NCBI GenBank assembly: GCA_025617745.1
Contig: CM046870.1
Span: 5,767,618 to 5,831,617 of the forward strand
Length of the DNA stretch: 64,000 nucleotides
Origin: Heliocidaris erythrogramma
Taxonomy: Eukaryota; Echinodermata; Echinoidea; Camarodonta; Echinometridae
Direction: 5' to 3'
The notes under the pieces were generated by a model. The model ran no database searches, was not told where the DNA came from, and worked only from the letters and a program-made list of their open reading frames with translations. A program made the position numbers and the translations under genes. Below are positions 28,296 to 64,000 of this stretch, piece by piece; position 1 is the stretch's first letter; every line of letters starts with the position of its first letter.

Positions 28296-29630
28296 TGACA
28301 AGAGTTTATTTTTTATTTTTTGTTTGTAAGGTTTAAATGTAAGGAATAACATTCAGTCAGAGTGCAAATTGCAACTGCACAATTTAGTTTGTAGTCATTC
28401 AATGAGTTATGAAGTAATTACCGAAAGAAGTTATGCTTCATTCATAAGGTCAACTAGGAATGGAATAGGGCTTTTCTTATATATGTTAGTTCTACATTTA
28501 ACACCTGCATATGCGGTGACTCTTCTGAGAGACCCTGATTATCGGTGTTCCAATTTGGCAGGTAGCCTGTCCCGGAAATGAGGAGAGGTAGTAATTGACT
28601 TCGCAAACTTTTTACATAAGTCACGTCTTCTTTCCGCCAAAGGTTTGAGTTTAGTTGTTTTCAAGGCACTATCATAAGTAAGGCCTATATAACCTGTTGA
28701 GCAGTAAGGCCAGGGTGCCAGACTGGGCATGCAAACTCTACCAATGGTCTTACATAACCAGTATAGACTCTCAATAGGTCATTCAGTGGGAGGTTAAATC
28801 GTTTAAGAGATCTTAGCATGTACAATCTCTTGTTTGCCCCAGACACCATGCTATGGACATGATCGTCCCACTTAAGGTTAGACTTTAATAAAATGCCTAG
28901 GACTTTCACTGACTGTACCTCGAGGAGAGGTTGGTCACCGAGTCGTATGATGGAAGCGGGAAGTGGTGCTCTTCCAAAATGCACTCGCATCACATGGCAT
29001 TTACTTGCATTCAGAAGCATCTTGTTGTTATTACACCAACTAATAAGGTCGTCTAAGGTACTCTGCATAACACCAACCGCACTCCGTGTTGTTGCTTCAG
29101 CGATGGTCATGTCGTCTACATATTTCCATTTTTCCAAGTTGGAGGATGCCAGGGCATCGTTAGTTAAAACTAAAAACAGAATGGGTCCTAGGCGTGTTCC
29201 CTGAGGTACCACTGCCCTTAAAGGGGCCCAACTGGACATGACACCATGATAGCGAATACACTGGGTGCGGTTACTGAGAGAGTTCATGATCCAGGGTATA
29301 ATGGATGGGCAAGATACAAGATTAATGAGATTAGTTACGACAATATTATGGTCCACCCTGTCAAAAGCCTTTGAAAAGTCAGTTGTGACCAGAGTGGACG
29401 TGGTACCTAGTTTGTCTGAGTTCTTTGACAGAAAGTTAACAATGTCTACAAGACAGTGAGTTGTTGATCTTCCAGGGATGCAGCCAAATTGCTTTACATC
29501 TAATTTTGTGGATATGTCTGTCATCAGCCATTTGGTGATAAACAATCTGTGAGTGCGATTGGTCTCAATTTGTCAATGCTCGCTGGCTTCTCCTTTGGGA
29601 TTGGGACGACAATTCCCTGTTATATACCTT
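28296..29630 (-). pseudogene. Non-LTR retrotransposon reverse transcriptase, 5'-truncated
   Basis: Minus-strand translation begins near 29630 with GIVVPIPKEKPASIDKLRPI followed by ALTD, then after a frame break reads FITKWLMTDI, FGCIPGRSTTHCLVDI, VTTDFSKAFDRVDHN (motif A), VPQGTRLGPILF (motif B) and WKYVDDMTIAE (YVDD catalytic box). NASKCHVMRV and VLGILLKSNLKWDDHV follow. A second frame break near 28700 leads to YDSALKTTKLKPLAERRRDL followed by CKKFAK, the usual C-terminal arm. The 3' UTR ends near 28296 in AAAAAATAAAAAATAAAC. The palm motifs are intact over about 286 codons, but the endonuclease is missing and two frame breaks make it inactive. Confidence 0.9.
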
Positions 29631-32268: not shown

Positions 32269-32417
32269 GTGGAGTATGGTATTATTCCGATGATGATCCT
32301 CGCTGTGATCCTCATGGACCTGGAGCTGTCTACTATGGTCTCCATACCAACGTACCCAAGGAAATGATGGCTTATTCGGACTTTCCTCTCGCAAAATCTC
32401 TAACGCCGTTTCCAAAG
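32269..32417 (+). CDS. FMO-like gene, first visible exon (GGxW region)
   Basis: Acceptor TATGTAG ends at 32268. The exon begins with two bases of a Gly codon and reads GVWYYSDDDPRCDPHGPGAV, then YYGLHTNVPKEMMAYSDFPL and AKSLTPFPK, ending in phase 0 at donor AAG|GTAAAG. This matches the flavin-containing monooxygenase segment around IGGLW, SLRTNLPKE and MAFPDFPF, which follows the FAD-binding fold. FMOs use FAD and NADPH to oxygenate soft nucleophiles such as amines and sulfides at the ER membrane. The 5' exon with the FAD dinucleotide motif is missing from view. Phase and motif order agree with the next exon at 33539. Confidence 0.9.
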
Positions 32418-33538: not shown

Positions 33539-33857
33539 GCGAGTGACATCCAAAAGTATTACGAACTGTACGCTGATCACTTTAGTCTCCTCAAACATAT
33601 CAACTTCAACGTCGAAGTGGTATCTGTCGACAAGGCAAAGGATTTAGAGGATACCGGTCGCTGGAAGGTGACGGTCCGCCCGATCTCTGGGGAGATTCGA
33701 AGCGAGGTGTTCGATGCAGTGATGGTGTGTTCTGGTCTCTATCCAGCGGGCTACATTCCACCCTATCCTGGATTAGATTCCTTCAAAGGACAGATCATGC
33801 ACAGCTGCCAAATCAAACGGGAGTCTTACTTCACCGACAAGACAGTCCTGCTGATAG
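33539..33857 (+). CDS. FMO-like gene, exon with FMO signature motif
   Basis: The acceptor TTTTCAAAG ends at 33538 and the exon enters in phase 0: ASDIQKYYELYADHFSLLKH, then INFNVEVVSV, WKVTVRPISG, VFDAVMVCSGLYPAGYIPPY and PGLDSFKGQIMHSCQIKR, ending KTVLLIG in phase 1 at donor G|GTAATG. The FMO signature FxGxxxHxxx(Y/F) is present as FKGQIMHSCQI, with Ile at the last aromatic position. The exon ends at the start of the NADPH-binding Rossmann motif, which the next exon completes. The 106-codon length and order match the family. Confidence 0.92.
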
Positions 33858-38668: not shown

Positions 38669-38724
38669 GTTCAGGGACTTCCGCAGGAGACATGGCACAT
38701 CATATCAGTCATCATGCAGATCAG
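38669..38724 (+). CDS. FMO-like gene, short exon completing the NADPH GxGxxG motif
   Basis: This 56-bp exon is flanked by CACACAG and GTGAGG splice sites. Its first two bases complete the Gly codon left by the exon ending at 33857. It reads GSGTSAGDMAHHISHHADQ, giving VLLIG-GSGTSAGD across the junction. This is the second dinucleotide fold (NADPH) motif, GxGxSxxD in FMOs. It ends in phase 0 and joins directly to VYLSLRRGAW in the next exon. The exon is too short to be found by ORF length, and phase agreement on both sides supports it strongly. Confidence 0.9.
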
Positions 38725-40719: not shown

Positions 40720-42239
40720 CCTTATTCCGAAGGGAAAAGGCCCTTTGAGAGAGACAAGTTAACAATTTTTGTAAAAACTGGGAGAAGTGATTCAGTGCAA
40801 TTTAATAAAAGCTTTGTAGGCATTGGGTCAAGAGAACTTGATTTCTTACTCAAGCCTTTGACTAATTTCTCAACCTCATTTTCAGATAATTTTTTGAAAG
40901 AAGGAAAAAACTGAGAAAGTGATATATAGTGATATAGATATAGAGTACAAGCTCTGTCATCTACAGTTGTCTTAATGTCAGAGTGGATTCCAACTATCTT
41001 ATCACAGAAAAGTTTCCTAAATCATTTGCAAATTGTATTCTATCAACGTGAGGAGGCATCATAGGATTAAGCCTGGTCATATTCAACAAAGACTTAGTGA
41101 CATTAAAAAGACTTCTTTGATCAGAACTGTTCTCCTTTATCATTTCAGAGTAATATATACGACGGGCCCTATTCATAACAAATAATGTCGTGTTACGAGC
41201 TGCTTTAAACCTATCGTAATCGGGAGGGGTACTTTTTCTCAACCATCTTTTCTCTGCTTTCCTTCTTTTTCTTTTTTCTGTCCTAACATCATCCGTAAAC
41301 CAAGGTACCTGTGGACGAGGAGTTACACTCTTGGTTATCAAAGGTGCATGTTTGTTTAAAATTGAACTGAGAGTATTATTGTATAAAGAAAACAATTCCA
41401 TAAAATCATCAGGAGTGTTTGTGCAAAGGGAACTATTAGCAACATCACTCTTCAGTGAATCCATGTCTATACAACCGAATTTGCGAAAAGATATTTTTTT
41501 AGAAATCAAAGGTGATTTGCATGAATTCAGCTGACACATAACAGGAAAATGATCTGAAATCAAAGAACCAGGCCAGGGTCGGCCCACAATTATGTCATCT
41601 GTCTTACGAGATATAACCAAATCTAGAGTATGACCGTGAGTATGAGTACTAAAGTCAACATGTTGAGTACAAGAAAGTGAGTCAAGTAAACCCATAAAAG
41701 ATCTTGATTCTTGATTATCAATGATATCAACATGAATATTGAAGTCACCAGTAATTATAACAGGAACATTACATAACAACTGATCCTGTATAAACTCACT
41801 GAATTCAAATAAGAAAACAGACATTGATACACGGTGAGCATCAGAATAAGGTGGTCTGTAGATATTAGCTAACTTGAGTTGAAAAGATCTAAATGATATA
41901 AGATATTGCGCAAACTCAAATGACACTTTTTCACCTGCAACAATCTGACGTGAATCTGACGTGAATCGATTGAATACTTGAAGAGAAGAGCAGTTCCGCC
42001 ACCACGACGAGCAATACGCGGACAATGAACAAAGCGATGACCAACAGGGGCGATATCATGAATGATGGCAGAATCATTTTCTGTCAACCAAGTCTCTGTT
42101 ATAGCATATAAGTCAGCCTTACTTTCACAGACAAAATCATACACAGATGCCGTCTTACTCCGTAATGAGCGAACATTCATGGCACACAACTTCAGGTAAG
42201 ATTGAGGAGGGGTAGATGATTTGATACCAGTAGTGTCTC
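40720..42239 (-). pseudogene. LINE APE endonuclease and RT start, frameshifted and truncated
   Basis: After the A6G3 frameshift the minus strand reads NVRSLRSKTASVYDF, ETWLTENDSAIIHDI and RRGGGTALLF. A shift near 41950 leads to ANIYRPPYSD, VIITGDFNIHVDIID, HTLDLVISR and SLISDHFPVMCQL, the standard APE boxes ending with SDH. The linker NKHAPLITKSV, VPWFTDDVR and ARRIYYSEMIKEN follows. A further shift near 41000 gives KLFCDKIVGIHSDI and KKSSSLDPMPTKLL, then LSLSKGPFPSE, the first RT segment, after which stops appear and the RT palm is missing. Endonuclease catalytic boxes are retained, but three shifts break the frame. Confidence 0.8.
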
Positions 42240-42719
42240 TTACCCTTTTTTCCTGTCCACCACGTGTTCCTCTCCTGGTTTTCTTCTTGCTATTAATTCT
42301 AAGCGATCTAAGAGATTTTTCCGATTAATTCCTAGTAATTCAATAATTTCAATTACATTTTTCGATAGCAATGATCTGCAACCCTTCCATTGGAGAAGCT
42401 CTGTTGGAGTGTAGTTTATTCGTTGTACAGCCGAAGATGGCCCTTGCACATTAGCATCACCAGTTCTGGCAGTCGACGATATAGGTGAAATTTGCCTGTC
42501 AGGGCCAGGGTTTGGATTAATATCTCCATCTTGTAGAAGCTCAAGCTGAAAGGTAGCATCACAGTTCAAGCTGTAGGAGATCCTTGTCTTTAGGAAATGC
42601 TTTCTGGTGAAGGGCTGCTGAACAAAAGGATGATAATGAACAGATTGCTTTCCATTGTAATGTTCAGGTCCATTCAGGCAAACACGTAGACACACAGCAA
42701 CCAGCAGAAATAGTCCCAT
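42240..42719 (-). CDS. LINE N-terminal ORF with signal-like start and 2A-like NPGP motif
   Basis: The 159-residue frame opens with a hydrophobic MGLFLLVAVCLRVCLNG, signal-peptide-like. Residues 61-73 read LLQDGDINPNPGP: a 2A-like ribosome-skipping motif, D-(V/I)-E-x-N-P-G-P in the consensus, with Asn in place of Glu (genomic 42501-42530). Skipping would separate residue G72 from P73. Such 2A-like sequences are known from APE-type non-LTR retrotransposons of sea urchins and other animals. The frame stops at 42240 after an A6G3 run; a one-base shift there leads into the endonuclease (VRDTTGIKSSTPPQSYLKLC, then AMNVRSLRSK). The original was therefore probably one polyprotein. Function of the segment after 2A is unknown. 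Confidence 0.75.
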   Translation of the reverse strand: MGLFLLVAVCLRVCLNGPEHYNGKQSVHYHPFVQQPFTRKHFLKTRISYSLNCDATFQLELLQDGDINPNPGPDRQISPISSTARTGDANVQGPSSAVQRINYTPTELLQWKGCRSLLSKNVIEIIELLGINRKNLLDRLELIARRKPGEEHVVDRKKG

Positions 42720-42840
42720 TGTGTCAAGGTTCTGGTTCAGTGCATCTACTTACGTAATACAATCAGTACATTAACATTAGACATGTATAGACAACTTCAT
42801 GTACTTACAATGTATAGGCAGCCATGTTATCTTGCTTTGA

Positions 42841-44829: not shown

Positions 44830-45320
44830 TTTTGGGGGATAGTTGACCTACATGCTGCCATGGGTGAGAGTATGTTGGTTGTTGTCCGATTGATAATTAC
44901 CCTAAGTCGTTGTTGTCCGGGGGTAGTTATTTGGGTGGTAGGTATCTTAGGTGGTTGTTGTCAAGGAGATGTCCTAGAGGGTGGTTGCCCTCCGATGCAG
45001 TTGTCGGGGGGGGGGGTAGTTGAGCTAAAGGGTGGTTGTCCTAAAGTGTAGTTGTCTGGAGGTTAGTTGTCCGGGGGTAGTTGTCCTAGGTGCTAGTTCT
45101 CCGGGGTAGTTGTCCTGGGGGAGTTGACCTAGAGGGTGGTTGTCCTAAAGGGTAGTTGTCTGGGGGGGGGGGGGAGGTGGCTGGGGGTAGTTGTCCCAGG
45201 GGGTAGTTGTCCGGGGGGTACTAGACCTAGAGGGTGGTTGTCCTAGGGGGTAGTTGTCCGGCGGGTAGTTGTTCTAGAGGGTGGTTGTCCTAGAGGGTGG
45301 CGACGACAAAATAATTCCCC
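44830..45320 (+). repeat. GGGTAGTTGTCCTAGG minisatellite, plus orientation
   Basis: Units such as GGGTGGTTGTCCTAAAGGGT and GGGGGTAGTTGTCCTAGG repeat with variation from about 44860 to 45310. It is the reverse complement of the array at 39690-40110, so the two arrays form a large inverted pair in one intron. G16 follows at 45346-45361. Confidence 0.85.
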
Positions 45321-45498: not shown

Positions 45499-45892
45499 GT
45501 GTACTTAAGTTTGCGACGAGGAGCCTGGGTTCTTCCACGATTCTTTTATAACCACCAATTCATGCAAGATTTCTTCTCTCAAAGATGGAAGCGTTGGGTA
45601 CCTTCATGTCTACTGGCAAAATTGCTGCAAAACAAGCTAGACTATCTAATGGATTGGGAGAGCCTGGGTTTACAGCACTTGAGGCAAGCATTTGATGCCC
45701 ACGCTATGCTGGGCGAGGACCTGCCCTCTAGGATTATGGAAGGGAGAGTGAGAGTCAGGAGTGGGATCGAGAGGTTTGACGGGTCGAGTGTCATTTTCGT
45801 CGATGGATCGGTGGTTGACAACGTTGATTACGTCATCTTCGCCACGGGCTACGAGCTCAAGTTCCCTTTCTTCAGGGAAGAAGTCATACCAG
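45499..45892 (+). CDS. FMO-like gene, exon with FATGY motif
   Basis: Acceptor TCTCACAG ends at 45498. In phase 0 the exon reads VYLSLRRGAWVLPRFFYNH, then WVPSCLLAKLL, LGLQHLRQAFDAHAMLGEDL and PSRIMEGRVRVRSGIERFDG, and NVDYVIFATGYELKFPFF, ending in phase 1 at CCAG|GTGGGA. The block starting RRGAWVLPR after the NADPH fold, the pattern DELP-RI--G-V-VR--I--F, and the FATGY box near the end are all characteristic of FMOs. The 131 codons show no frame break. FATGY is a conserved C-terminal FMO/N-hydroxylating monooxygenase motif. Confidence 0.92.
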
Positions 45893-46739: not shown

Positions 46740-47060
46740 AGATACAGGTTTCGTGATCTAGTGGATAAGTCACCGGACTATGAAGCTCATTGTGGGGTTT
46801 CAAATCCTTGCCATGGCACTAATGTCCTTTGGCAAGACAAGAATCTACATTTACCACTCTCCACCCAGGAGTTTAAAAAATATGGTTACCGGCCGACAGG
46901 AAGAAATTTCTTGAAAGCTTGAGCACCTTGCCAGAGTCGCTCGGATAAAGTCGGGGTAATGATTTGATTCCAGGGCCCTCAGTATTAACACTGATGAGGC
47001 TACCCTGGATAAACAAGATTTATTATTAATATCATTATTGTCATTATTATCTTTATACAC
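46740..47060 (+). mobile_element. tRNA-derived SINE whose tail abuts an FMO exon acceptor
   Basis: The head GATCTAGTGGATAAGTCACC fits a tRNA A box and GGGGTTTCAAATCC a B box. The body reads CCTTTGGCAAGACAAGAATC, ACCACTCTCCACCCAGGAGT and the tail is ATT-rich (TTATTATTAATATCATTATT). The tail continues into the AT-rich stretch directly before AG at 47073-47074, so the SINE sits within about 15-20 bp of the splice acceptor of the next FMO exon. A second copy lies at 39420-39640. Confidence 0.75.
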
Positions 47061-47074
47061 ACTATTCATCATAG

Positions 47075-47325
47075 ATGGGTATGATAAAATGGAGATGTAC
47101 CTGCACATGTTCCCAGTGCGGTTCCTTCACCCAACCCTGTCCTTCGTGGGCTTTGCGCTACCTTATTTCACTGGTCAGAACCCGGTGAGTTAGATGCAGA
47201 CCAGATACATCACAAAGGTCTTCAAGGGGGAAGTACACCTACCCAGCGTAAAGCATATGCACCAGGAAATTACGTCCAGAAAAGAAGCCTACTTCACGAG
47301 ATATGGTGATCACCATTCAACAATC
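47075..47325 (+). CDS. FMO-like gene, exon with in-frame TAG stop
   Basis: Two bases complete the Asp codon begun at 45892, then GYDKMEMYLHMFPVRFLHPT and LSFVGFALPYFTGQNPVS are followed by TAG at 47191-47193. MQTRYITKVFKGEVHLPSVK and RKEAYFTRYG then continue without a break to donor ATC|GTAAGT in phase 0. FMOs have a P-x-S/A-E-L/M-Q-x-R block here, so TAG stands at the Glu position, one G-to-T change from GAG. Both sides of the stop align with FMOs in the same frame. The product would be cut roughly 160 residues before the end and lose the membrane anchor. It may be a pseudogene, a segregating null allele or a sequencing error. Confidence 0.88.
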
Positions 47326-47692
47326 GTAAGTCGTAACAACAACAAAAAAGAGGAAAACCGATTGGGGGGGGGGGGGGTTAGGCTAGAAGAGAATTTACAG
47401 TCAATGTTCATCGTTGTATTGTTGTTGCTTTTTTCGTAACTGAAGGTGTTTAGCTCTGCAACAAGGAATTGCCATCCCAATTATTACTGTCGAAAGAAAC
47501 AGTTTTCACAATCTTTTAACCATTAAAGCAATGGACGCTAATTTTCAGTTATTCATATAATTATTCATATTCATAATACAAAGATCTTTACTACAAAACA
47601 AATAGGTATATTATAATATGGGCTCACATTGACAAATCACATTTGTCAATCCTTTGGTCAGTTGAATATGGGGTCGCCGAAACCACTAGCCC
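47326..47692. other. FMO intron start; nothing recognised
   Basis: A G13 tract lies near 47365. No gene or repeat boundary was identified. Confidence 0.4.
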
Positions 47693-47763
47693 GTCTCCGT
47701 TGTCTAGTGGTTAAGGGATTGGCTTTCTAACCCCGGGCTCCGGGTTCGATTCTCGGCGGAGAC
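47693..47763 (+). tRNA. tRNA-like sequence, possible anticodon UCU (Arg), or SINE head
   Basis: The 71-nt sequence has a perfect 7-bp acceptor stem (GTCTCCG with CGGAGAC), a four-pair D stem with A box TAGTGGTTAAGG, and a five-pair T stem around TTCGATT with B box GGTTCGATTCT. A TTTTTT Pol III terminator follows at once. The anticodon loop reads TTTCTAA (UCU), but its stem TTGGC/CCCCG is poorly paired. It is therefore more likely a tRNA pseudogene or SINE head than a working gene. It lies in the last FMO intron. Confidence 0.5.
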
Positions 47764-48021
47764 ATTTTTTCAACCTTTGAAAAAAAAAATCAAAAGGGCA
47801 GCAATGGGGAACCGTTTTTTTTTTTTTTTTTTTTTAGGGTTGTCTACTCTCTCACGGAATTCGTTAGTTTCATTTAACTGTATTGTATTAGTAATATTTT
47901 ATTTCATTTTGTTGCTTTTAAGTTATTAGATGTACAATGTATACTGAGTTAAACAGACCACCTGTGCGCTTAGAAACGACCGTATAAAGCGCCCTATAAA
48001 TGTAATTATTATTATTATTAT
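47764..48021 (+). mobile_element. LINE/SINE 3' body with ATT-repeat tail
   Basis: A T21 run lies at 47817-47837. The segment ends in TAAAGCGCCCTATAAATGTA and ATT repeats (48003-48021). This end resembles the 3' ends of the minus-strand LINEs at 13678 and 40597. With the tRNA-like head at 47693 it may be one SINE with a LINE-derived tail. Confidence 0.6.
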
Positions 48022-48045
48022 TTCGATTTTCCGTAATATACAGTA

Positions 48046-48590
48046 GGGTAGGTGCAGGTAATATGGGACCCTTAAGCTCATTTGCATAATTTGCATAAAG
48101 ACAAATAAAGACACACAGAATATACTTTGTTCCCATGAATCAGTAACGACTAGTCTAACTTTTAATGTAAAGAAAACAAAATTATCACCAGCCCCCTGTC
48201 CATTATATGCAAATTATGACATCATCACCAATAGTCCCATATTACCTACAGTGCAGGTAATATGGGACCATTAATTAAAGACATTAGGTTCACATTAAAA
48301 CGACTCTATTATGTCTGGTATTTACTTTAAAATGTATAAAAGTCATTAACTGTAAGATGATTTCACATTTTAAGGACCTTTAATGAATATGTTGACTTAA
48401 AATTATATAATTTATAGATCGTCTGAAGAAAAGTAAACCTGCAGACCAGTCCTATGCCAAGAATAATGCAATGCTTAGGCTTCCAGCTCAGTGAAATTGA
48501 CAAAATATGTATGGTTGCCTGTGGCTTTTACTGTGAACCTCAGCTCAGGGTCCCATATTACCTGCAGCCCCATATTACCTGCACCTACCC
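48046..48590. mobile_element. Mariner-type MITE, 545 bp, TA duplication
   Basis: GGGTAGGTGCAGGTAATATG at the left and CATATTACCTGCACCTACCC at the right form terminal inverted repeats directly flanked by TA (48044-48045 and 48591-48592). An internal pair around 48236-48270 repeats the terminus (CATATTACCTACAGTGCAGG), and another partial copy lies near 48550. TA flanks suggest a Tc1/mariner-type source. There is no coding capacity. Confidence 0.8.
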
Positions 48591-48679
48591 TATGTGTATA
48601 TGCATGTATATACATGTATTAGTGTATGGTCTGGGGAAATTGATATAAGCTCAGCAAAAATGATAATGCCTAAGTATGT

Positions 48680-48750
48680 TTTGGGGTTCGAATTCATGAC
48701 CTTCCAAACTTCAAGTACGTGTTCAAACCATTCGACCAACCGAGTAGTCA
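48680..48750 (-). repeat. tRNA-like sequence, minus strand (Ser-like), decayed
   Basis: Minus-strand GGTTGGTCGAATGGTTTGAA fits an A box and GAATTCGAACCCC a B box. The middle CACGTACTTGAAGTTTGG resembles a Ser(UGA) anticodon arm. The acceptor stem is not evident, so it is probably a SINE head. Confidence 0.35.
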
Positions 48751-48759
48751 GGATTTCAT

Positions 48760-49390
48760 TTTAGGGGGGGGGGGGGGGCGGTTGTGAGCGGTTGAACTGA
48801 ACTGTTCACCAGGAGATTGGATGCAGGTAAAGGGTGCTCTGACATTTGAGCAAATTTGAGAGAAAGATAACGGCTCGTAGCACCTTTTTTAAGGCAGAAA
48901 GTTCGACGCCCTGACTGCTTTTCAATTCTTTGGACGCAATACCGCACTAAATGTAACAGGGATTGGTGTAGGGGAGTTTCCCCCTTCCCGCGCAAAGCGC
49001 GAAAGCTCAGACGTTTTAGCACATTTTAGAGAAATATATCGGCTCGTTATCAGGGAGGGGAGTTTCCCCCCTTCCCGCGTGAAGCCAGAAATCTGATGTT
49101 TTAGCAAATTTGGGAGAAATATAACAGCTCCTAGCAAACCTTTTTTTTAGGCGGAGAGTTACTTCGACGCCATGACTGCCTTGCAATATTTGGAATCAAT
49201 ACTGAACTGTATGTAACAGGGTAGGTGCATGCAGGGGGCACTTTCCCCCTTCTTTGATGTTTTATGTTTTGAGAGAAAGATAACGGCTCGTAGCGTCTTT
49301 AAAAGGCTTGTTTCTCTCACTTCCCCCGCTTTTTCGCTCTTGCTCTTTTTTTTTTTGGGGGGGGGGAGGACCGCCCCCACCACCCTATAG
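48760..49390 (+). repeat. Second copy of the 15096-type tandem array
   Basis: AGCAAATTTGAGAGAAAGAT, GCTCGTAGCACC, GTTCGACGCCCTGACTGC and CTTCCCGCGCAAAGCGCGAA recur as in 15096-16130, with about three to four units. G15 precedes it at 48764-48778. It lies directly upstream of the last FMO exon. Confidence 0.8.
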
Positions 49391-49454
49391 CTACGCGCCT
49401 GCATTCGACTATGATTCTTCTATGACTTAACTTGATTCTTTTTTTTTTTCTCAG

Positions 49455-49793
49455 CTTGACCCAACTGCGTACTGTGATCAGTTAGCTGAAGCGATTGGGG
49501 CGCTACCAAGCTTGACAAAGCTTATATTCACTGATCCTGTACTAGCTTACTACTTCTACTTCTGCCCGGCCTACCCTCCATGTCACAGGTTGGTTGGTCC
49601 CGGGGCCACGCCCGGGGCGCGACAAGCTCTCATTGACTGCAAACAGAACCAAGTGCACGGTATCACATTGACGACTGTACGTAAAGATGCGAGAGAACTA
49701 TTACAGGCGTATAAAGACAGTCAGAGGTCCTCCAAGCCAGTCTATGTCATTACTGTCGCCATTTTGACTTTGGTCTTTTACATTTTAATGTAA
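49455..49793 (+). CDS. FMO-like gene, last exon with C-terminal membrane anchor
   Basis: A T-rich tract and TTCTCAG precede a phase-0 entry: LDPTAYCDQLAEAIGALPSL, then TKLIFTDPVLAYYFYF, YPPCHRLVGPGATPGARQAL and ETC-type charged linker RKDARELLQAYKDSQRSSK, ending PVYVITVAILTLVFYILM before TAA. DQLAEAIG, L-TDPVLA and HRLVGPG-x-GAR match the C-terminal block of FMOs. The final hydrophobic segment of about 18 residues is the family's tail anchor for the ER membrane. The exon frame is intact, though the in-frame TAG in the preceding exon would stop translation before it. The six visible exons total about 500 codons, which with one missing N-terminal exon fits the usual 530-560. Confidence 0.92.
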   Translation, partial: LDPTAYCDQLAEAIGALPSLTKLIFTDPVLAYYFYFCPAYPPCHRLVGPGATPGARQALIDCKQNQVHGITLTTVRKDARELLQAYKDSQRSSKPVYVITVAILTLVFYILM

Positions 49794-56112: not shown

Positions 56113-57023
56113 ATGAATAATCCCCTAGAAGATGTTGATCCAGACTTGCATGTGTATAATTTTCCCCAATCTTCATACTATCTTCTTTCAGAGTTTAATG
56201 TAAAGTTTTTATATAATTCATCTCTAAGTCTTATCCATGTTAATGCCCGAAGTTTACAGAAAAACTTGAAAATATTTCTCAATTCTTGTCAATGATAAAT
56301 CATTCCTTCTCTTTTATATCAATTTCTGAAATCTGGATATGTGATACAACCTCAGTTAATTTCAATCTAGATGATTATAATTTTTTGAATGTTAACAGGA
56401 TATATGGACGAGGGGGTGGTGTTGCGCTATTTGTGAAAAACAGATATACTATATACTGTAAGAACAGATATCGTTTATAAGCAAGAGTCCATTTTAACAT
56501 GTGAATATTTGTTTATTGATTTCTTAGATGTAAACCACAAGAGGTCTGTTGGTGTCATATAGAGAAACCCAGGATCAAATCATGAAATATTTTTTGAATT
56601 TTACAACAATGCTGTTAATACATTAAAGGGATACGCCACCGGCCGACCGTGGGGAAGTCAGGATTGCGTAAGCCCCATTCACTCGTACACAAAGTTTGTG
56701 CGTCGAACGCGTCCGTTGGACTAAGTGGGATTACATTTCGACTGCACGAAGCCGACCGAATCTCGCACGAGAGCTCGAGATCAGGTGGAGCGTATATGTT
56801 TGTGCGGCGACCAGTCTATCCGATGTTTGCGCTCCGAGGGGCAACGGCAGGATCAGGTAACGATCACGGTGCCCTCTCGCGGCATTAAAACGCCCACGAT
56901 CGGCCGTTGAGTATCCCTTTAAGTAATGAACATAGGAATATTTATTTCACTGGAGACTTTAATATTGATTTGTTTAAAGATGACGATACTGTTAATGAGG
57001 TCTTAGGCTTAGTTCTGTACTTG
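56113..57023 (+). pseudogene. LINE ORF2 5' part: APE endonuclease, split by a MITE
   Basis: From ATG at 56113 the frame reads MNNPLEDVDPDLHVYNFPQS, SLSLIHVNARSLQKNLKIF, then after a shift FISISEIWICDTTSVNF and RGGGVALFVKN. The reading is cut at 56622 by the TTAA-flanked MITE and resumes at 56923 as SNEHRNIYFTGDFNIDLFKD. HVNARSL, the ExW box and GDFN are endonuclease motifs of CR1/Jockey-type LINEs. Frameshifts and stops make it inactive. Confidence 0.8.
56627..56918. mobile_element. 292-bp MITE with TTAA target-site duplication, inside LINE ORF2
   Basis: AGGGATACGCCACCGGCCGA at the left and TCGGCCGTTGAGTATCCCT at the right form inverted termini. TTAA flanks it exactly (56623-56626 and 56919-56922). 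Removing the element and one TTAA restores an uninterrupted LINE reading across the site (NAVNTL then SNEHRN). TTAA specificity points to a piggyBac- or Kolobok-type source. The interior is GC-richer than the surrounding LINE. Confidence 0.92.
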
Positions 57024-63335: not shown

Positions 63336-64000
63336 TCGCCCACATGCGATAACTAGAAATATCGTGATCTCTGTTGCCATGCAACAGGTCCCCCAAGTGC
63401 ATAAATCTGCATAAGTTATGCTTGCATATATCTACATTACTAATGTTTGGAAAGTGACGTTTACAAAGTTATGTCATAAGATAGTCTTGCGGGTAAACTA
63501 TAATGTTTGACCTGAAATGACCTTTGACCTTATCATGTGACCTCTGATGGCAGCATAACATGCAGGTCCCCCAAGTGCTTCTAAAACCCAAGTTTGGTTG
63601 AAAAGTGAGTGATGGTTGCAAAGTTATCTGTCATAAGAGAGTCTTGCAGGTAAACTTTAACGTATGACCTTTGACCTTATCGTGTGACCTCCAACGGCAC
63701 CATAATAATGCAGGTCCCCTTAGTGCATCTACAACCCAAGTTTGGTTGAAAAGTGAGTGACGGTTGCAAAGTTATGTCATAAGAGAGTCTTGCAGGTAAA
63801 CTTTAACGTATGACCTCAAAAGACCTTTGAACCTATGTGACCTCCAACGGCACCATAACATGCAGGTCCCCTCAGTGCATCTACAACCCAAGTTTGGTTG
63901 AAAAGTGAGTGATGGTTGCAAAGTTATCTGTCATAAGAGAGTCTTGCAGGTAAACTTTAACGTATGACCTCAAATGACCTTTGAACCTATGTGACCTCCA
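63336..64000 (-). repeat. AGGTCA-bearing tandem array, inverted relative to 35290, runs off window
   Basis: It opens at about 63330 with GTGTCTCGCCCACATGCGAT. Units of about 150 bp carrying AGAGTCTTGCAGGTAAACTT recur near 63485 (diverged), 63638, 63785 and 63938, each with TGACCTCAAATGACCTTTGA and GTGACCTCCAACGGCACC. These are the reverse complement of the units at 35290-36480. The array continues beyond position 64000. Confidence 0.85.

Follow-up and report, generated by a model that had tools for sequence, protein, structure and literature searches.

The sea urchin Heliocidaris erythrogramma has a flavin-containing monooxygenase (FMO) gene in which one exon carries an in-frame TAG, with coding sequence continuing on both sides. 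The locus therefore raises the question of whether this stop codon marks the loss of the gene, is bypassed in some way, or is an error in the assembly. The window analysed here is a stretch of 64,000 nucleotides (CM046870.1, referred to below as C18, positions 5767618-5831617), and related copies were sought in the same 1.06-Gb genome of 26 contigs.

Structure of the gene

Six FMO exons, A to F (Table 1), lie on the plus strand between 32269 and 49793. When they are joined they keep phase throughout, with AG at all six acceptors and GT at all five donors. The joined frame contains exactly two stops: the TAG, at codon 345, and the natural TAA, which is preceded by 501 codons. The preliminary description of this DNA, in which six visible FMO exons joined in phase and were otherwise open, is thus correct, the TAG being the sole stop in the 501 codons.

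Table 1. Features of the FMO copy, with positions counted from the first letter of the window.
Feature	Position	Strand	Evidence and remarks
Exon A	32269..32417	+	2+147 nt; homologue of coding exon 2 in the paralogues; junctions; 92-95% nucleotide identity to six C18 paralogues
Exon B	33539..33857	+	Junctions and paralogue comparison
Exon C	38669..38724	+	NADPH-binding turn GSGTSAGD in place of GxGxxG; junctions and paralogue comparison
Exon D	45499..45892	+	Contains FATGYELKFPF; junctions and paralogue comparison
Exon E	47075..47325	+	Carries the TAG; junctions and paralogue comparison
Donor-like site GTGAGT	47185..47190	+	Directly before the TAG; scored on a human weight matrix
In-frame TAG	47191..47193	+	GAG in all ten paralogous exons found
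Exon F	49455..49793	+	Hydrophobic C-terminus and natural TAA; junctions and paralogue comparison

With an X at the stop, the translation matches the Pfam FMO-like family PF00743 with 377 bits (E 1.7e-112) over profile positions 48-508 of 532; the unmatched start of the profile would include the first exon, which is missing from this copy. Exons D-F (327 aa) match solved ancestral FMOs, the best being 6sek (E 4.2e-49). The second GxGxxG-like turn, which binds NADPH, is present in exon C and takes the form GAGASAGD or GSGSSAGD in the paralogues; the third Gly is replaced by Ala in all three versions alike. The hydrophobic stretch that closes exon F, VYVITVAILTLVFYILM, was judged by eye to be a C-terminal anchor, and is located behind the TAG. 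This exon set goes far beyond a chance open frame.

The surroundings of the exons contain several other features. Two minus-strand open frames in or before the introns (40994-42749 and 28685-29572) look by eye like pieces of a LINE-type reverse transcriptase or endonuclease. A degenerate GTAGTTGTCCTAGGGGG-type minisatellite occupies 44965-45300, directly 5' of exon D, and a tandem array with units of about 152-154 bp runs from 63453 to 64000 and on past the end of the window, with further copies in L009. Just 3' of exon E, the segment 47693-47764 is tRNA-like in an Rfam search of 30000-52000 (Rfam tRNA, 32.6 bits), and ARAGORN run over the window reported no tRNA; the segment is perhaps a tRNA-derived SINE.

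The in-frame TAG

The frame around the stop, inside exon E, reads ...GTG AGT TAG ATG CAG ACC AGA TAC..., and the TAG is real in the assembly. Comparison with the FMO paralogues, which had been suggested as a check, gives GAG at this position in 10/10 paralogous exon E copies of the same genome, and in four ancestral FMOs the aligned residue is Glu in three and Asp in one. The earlier statements that the family has Glu here, and that the TAG is one G-to-T change from GAG, are therefore both borne out, a single substitution being the simplest history. The codon two before the TAG also differs, being GTG in this copy and GTT in the ten paralogues. Most simply, an ancestral string GTT AGT GAG would have become GTG AGT TAG, and at this divergence a pair of changes within nine bases is nothing unusual. 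The same stretch, 47184-47193, reads G-TTAG-TGAG in the paralogues and G-TGAG-TTAG here, as if two tandem 4-mers had traded places; the pattern is equally well explained by two substitutions.

By the usual distance rule, a transcript with a stop far enough before the last exon junction is degraded by nonsense-mediated decay. The TAG ends 132 nt 5' of the last exon junction and 156 codons ahead of the natural stop, so that a transcript of this copy would be a likely target of this process.

Several ways in which the stop might be tolerated were considered. It is followed by ATGCAG, in which no readthrough motif was recognised, and stop-codon readthrough is without positive support. A-to-I editing of UAG yields Trp; editing was rejected because this is not the Glu that is expected. 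Recoding was rejected on the basis of a protein search with exon E, in which 23 of 29 rows have no internal stop. The six rows with stops are this gene (TAG), the frameshifted copies C18:5960 and C10:3603, and three distant TGA rows on C19 and C20. Two of these distant exon E relatives, C19:6946506 and C19:7168364, each have one in-frame TGA in the matched stretch; they may be pseudogenes, or the match may overrun the end of the exon. A 15-nt mini-intron (GTGAGTTAGATGCAG, in frame, GT...AG) was rejected as well, as animal introns are far longer than this and its removal would take out conserved residues.

Paralogous copies

When the genome was searched at the DNA level with 47000-47500, there were 33 matches: this locus, ten further copies of exon E, and 22 short ones that fall in the initial 70 bases of the query, which are not part of the exon. 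The ten copies are 71-77% identical to the one described here, six of them lying on C18 and four on C10. The FMO clusters on the two contigs (C18:5836879-6303330 and C10:3603400-3699868) are near-identical, and the exon E peptide of two C10 copies is 100% identical to that of C18:5848. This could reflect a recent segmental duplication or misplaced haplotype sequence.

Three of the paralogues, C18:5848, C18:5925 and C18:6303, have the same exon order and phases as this copy, with Glu at the TAG site. They differ from it in having an open first exon and no stop over exons A-F. Protein identity of this copy is 76% to C18:5848 and 78% to C18:5925.

In the parts read, frame-breaking lesions are present in five of the eleven copies (four of the ten sisters), a count that is a lower bound because only exon E of the four C10 copies was read letter by letter. 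C18:5886 has a 46-nt deletion in exon B and an insertion of 5 in its first exon; C18:5960 has a 1-nt deletion in exon E, and its exon F did not turn up in the 5.9 kb read 3' of exon E; C18:6269 has a 1-nt deletion in exon F and +1 in its first exon; and C10:3603 has a 1-nt deletion in exon E. Exon E of C10:3653 carries a 9-base insertion that keeps the frame. Several lesions of the sister copies consist of one inserted or deleted base, in two cases at a short G/C run. These may be errors of the consensus or the assembly, which weakens the count as a measure of birth and death in the family.

The TAG itself might likewise be an error of base calling or consensus where the true codon is GAG, in which case this copy would be merely 5'-truncated. 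It is one base away from GAG, and the small indels in the near-identical sisters suggest that the consensus here may be imperfect. However, the change is a substitution, neither a homopolymer indel nor an indel between near-identical copies, and it sits in sequence that is just 71-77% identical to any other copy, the next best exon E in the one assembly examined being 77% identical. An error at this position is thus very unlikely.

The missing first coding exon

No first coding exon, with the start codon and the FAD-binding GxGxxG, could be found across the 47,268 bases 5' of exon A, made up of the window part and 15 kb above the window. The best piece had an E of 0.08, which is at chance level. 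There are no N runs in this sequence or anywhere in the window. In the six C18 paralogues the first exon stands 4-13 kb before exon A.

Genome-wide searches agree. At the DNA level a paralogue first exon hit 11 places: ten that belong, judged by position, to the ten respective paralogues, and a lone first exon at C18:6309127. A protein search with the first exon (E up to 10) gave 27 matches, none of which lies on C18 within this gene or 5' of it, and reached FMOs elsewhere at only 56-75% identity. The N-terminal GxGxxG was therefore not found in the window or the 15 kb upstream, and the genome searches place none beside the gene. In the protein search, the first exon of four C18 paralogues encodes one identical 38-residue peptide; that of C18:5886 is the one with the 5-base insertion, and that of C18:6269 lies partly under 500 N. 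The breakpoint of the loss could not be placed, as intron alignments between this copy and the paralogues are mostly confined to the flanks of exons, with scattered repeat-like matches besides. The first exon could sit further upstream in a gap, or could be too changed for detection.

If the exon lay in an unsearched stretch or a gap, or had been misplaced, the gene would be complete but for the TAG, which would then by itself make a segregating or fixed null allele, like human FMO2*2. This is unlikely. It is true that the remaining exons are intact and were formerly constrained, that a gap of 500 N occurs in the cluster at least once, on a first exon (L022), and that the lone first exon is only 0.5 Mb away. 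Against this, the window and the 15 kb above it have no N runs, and the genome-wide searches leave no spare intact first exon beside the gene. Judged by eye, the lone exon (L037:1496-1613) carries insertions of +3 and +4 relative to the paralogues, which put it out of frame. In the roughly 10.7 kb read after it, exons A, B, D and F gave just chance-level matches of 7-10 residues, and the exon E protein search gave no exon E beyond it on C18. A match between its flank and window positions 56623-56930 was attributed to a dispersed repeat with 1952 candidate places, of which 40 were scored.

Taking the TAG to be the only defect of a gene that is whole in other respects is therefore not supported, the first coding exon not having been found. 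The copy would probably be dead even if the TAG were absent; the TAG cannot be called the cause of the loss and may be a passenger in an already dead copy.

Selection and the time of decay

Compared with C18:5848, C18:5925 and C18:6303 over 500 comparable codons, this copy has Ks of 0.48-0.50, Ka of 0.13-0.14 and Ka/Ks of 0.27-0.28. The branch leading to it was taken as half of Ks (0.245), and indel rates of 0.05-0.15 per substitution were assumed. The expectation for a wholly neutral branch is then about 13-17 stops, the number varying with the transition bias, and 12-37 frameshifts, as against the one stop and no frameshifts observed. The best estimate of the neutral time is 0.005-0.009 substitutions per site, with an upper 95% bound of 0.022-0.040; this is about 2-3% of the branch, and at most 9-16%, the calculation leaving out the missing first exon and assuming no gene conversion. 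These values support the view that the FMO exons were held under purifying selection until recently, and the decay of the copy looks recent. An old pseudogene was rejected on the grounds that lesions are nearly absent, with the caveat of gene conversion.

Exon F has Ks of 0.26-0.29 against the paralogues, below that of exons B-E (Fisher p 0.001 and 0.002), and exon A is also low, at 0.21-0.30. Over 49455-49793, silent sites have diverged at most about half as much as in exons B-E. The pattern suggests that gene conversion is likely to have affected exon F, possibly erasing older lesions, and makes the dating soft.

Possible splicing around the stop

Directly before the TAG there is a sequence, CCG/GTGAGT (47182-47190), that resembles a strong splice donor. 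On a human donor weight matrix its score is 6.26, the native exon E donor scoring 2.12 and the corresponding sites of two paralogues (GTTAGT) 1.43. One native donor in the gene surpasses it, namely that of exon C (7.27). Only five of the 3514 GT sites on the plus strand of the window, this one included, reach 6.26. Splicing from 47184 to 49455 would drop 141 nt (47 codons) in frame, TAG included.

The stop might in principle be spliced out in this way, joining exon E early to exon F and leaving a shortened FMO. The GTG that replaces the GTT of the paralogues does create a donor-like site that ranks in the top five, and the part of exon E after it is less constrained (ratio 0.34-0.44) than the part before (0.16-0.17). 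However, the ratio after the site is close to that of exon F (0.31-0.39), which indicates that the removed part is still constrained; it carries the conserved MQTRYITKVFKGEV block; the weight matrix is human; and the first coding exon is missing regardless. Such a bypass is highly improbable. In a fuller version, the new 5' splice site six bases before the TAG would make the end of exon E intronic, and the copy would persist as an FMO-like protein shortened internally, with a new start in place of the FAD exon; this is extremely unlikely. The donor-like site just ahead of the TAG is best regarded as a neat coincidence.

Interpretation

On the basis of these observations, this is probably a recently inactivated, 5'-truncated FMO pseudogene in a tandem, birth-and-death FMO cluster. 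It shows features of an unprocessed pseudogene: five introns are kept, an in-frame TAG stands where the paralogues have GAG, and the first exon was not found. On this reading, selection maintained the copy through most of the period after its separation from the neighbouring genes; it then lost its first coding exon, with the start codon and the FAD-binding loop, and gained the nonsense change in its second-to-last exon. Both lesions would belong to one late period, in either order. A protein, if made, would be without its FAD-binding start and its last 156 residues, and with the TAG and the missing FAD exon together no working enzyme would be expected.

The preliminary description spoke of a fresh nonsense change and a recent loss. 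Its young pseudogene agrees with the Ka/Ks of 0.27-0.28 and the single stop; the TAG as the event of loss does not stand, with the first exon not found, a second and larger defect that the description had overlooked.

The case is an ordinary one for a duplicated gene that dies in a tandem family, and it changes no general idea. It does provide a clear case of a duplicated detoxifying-enzyme gene shortly after loss of function, with several sisters apparently broken too, and it carries a warning for annotation, in that the locus should not be labelled a working FMO.

Comparison with known systems

Among the papers listed in a literature search, none was seen to deal with this gene. The nearest known system is human FMO2, which PMC11576641 counts among the polymorphic pseudogenes. 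According to PMC4464233, the human allele FMO2*2 (FMO2 X472) has an in-frame stop that truncates the C-terminus by 64 residues and makes a non-functional protein, and it segregates with the full-length FMO2*1. The same paper calls an N-terminal truncation of FMO2 no option, as the FAD domain with its GxGxxG sits there. The sea urchin copy is like FMO2*2 in having an in-frame stop in an FMO gene that cuts off the C-terminus. It is unlike FMO2*2, which loses 64 residues and segregates with FMO2*1, in that 156 residues would go and that its first exon was not found.
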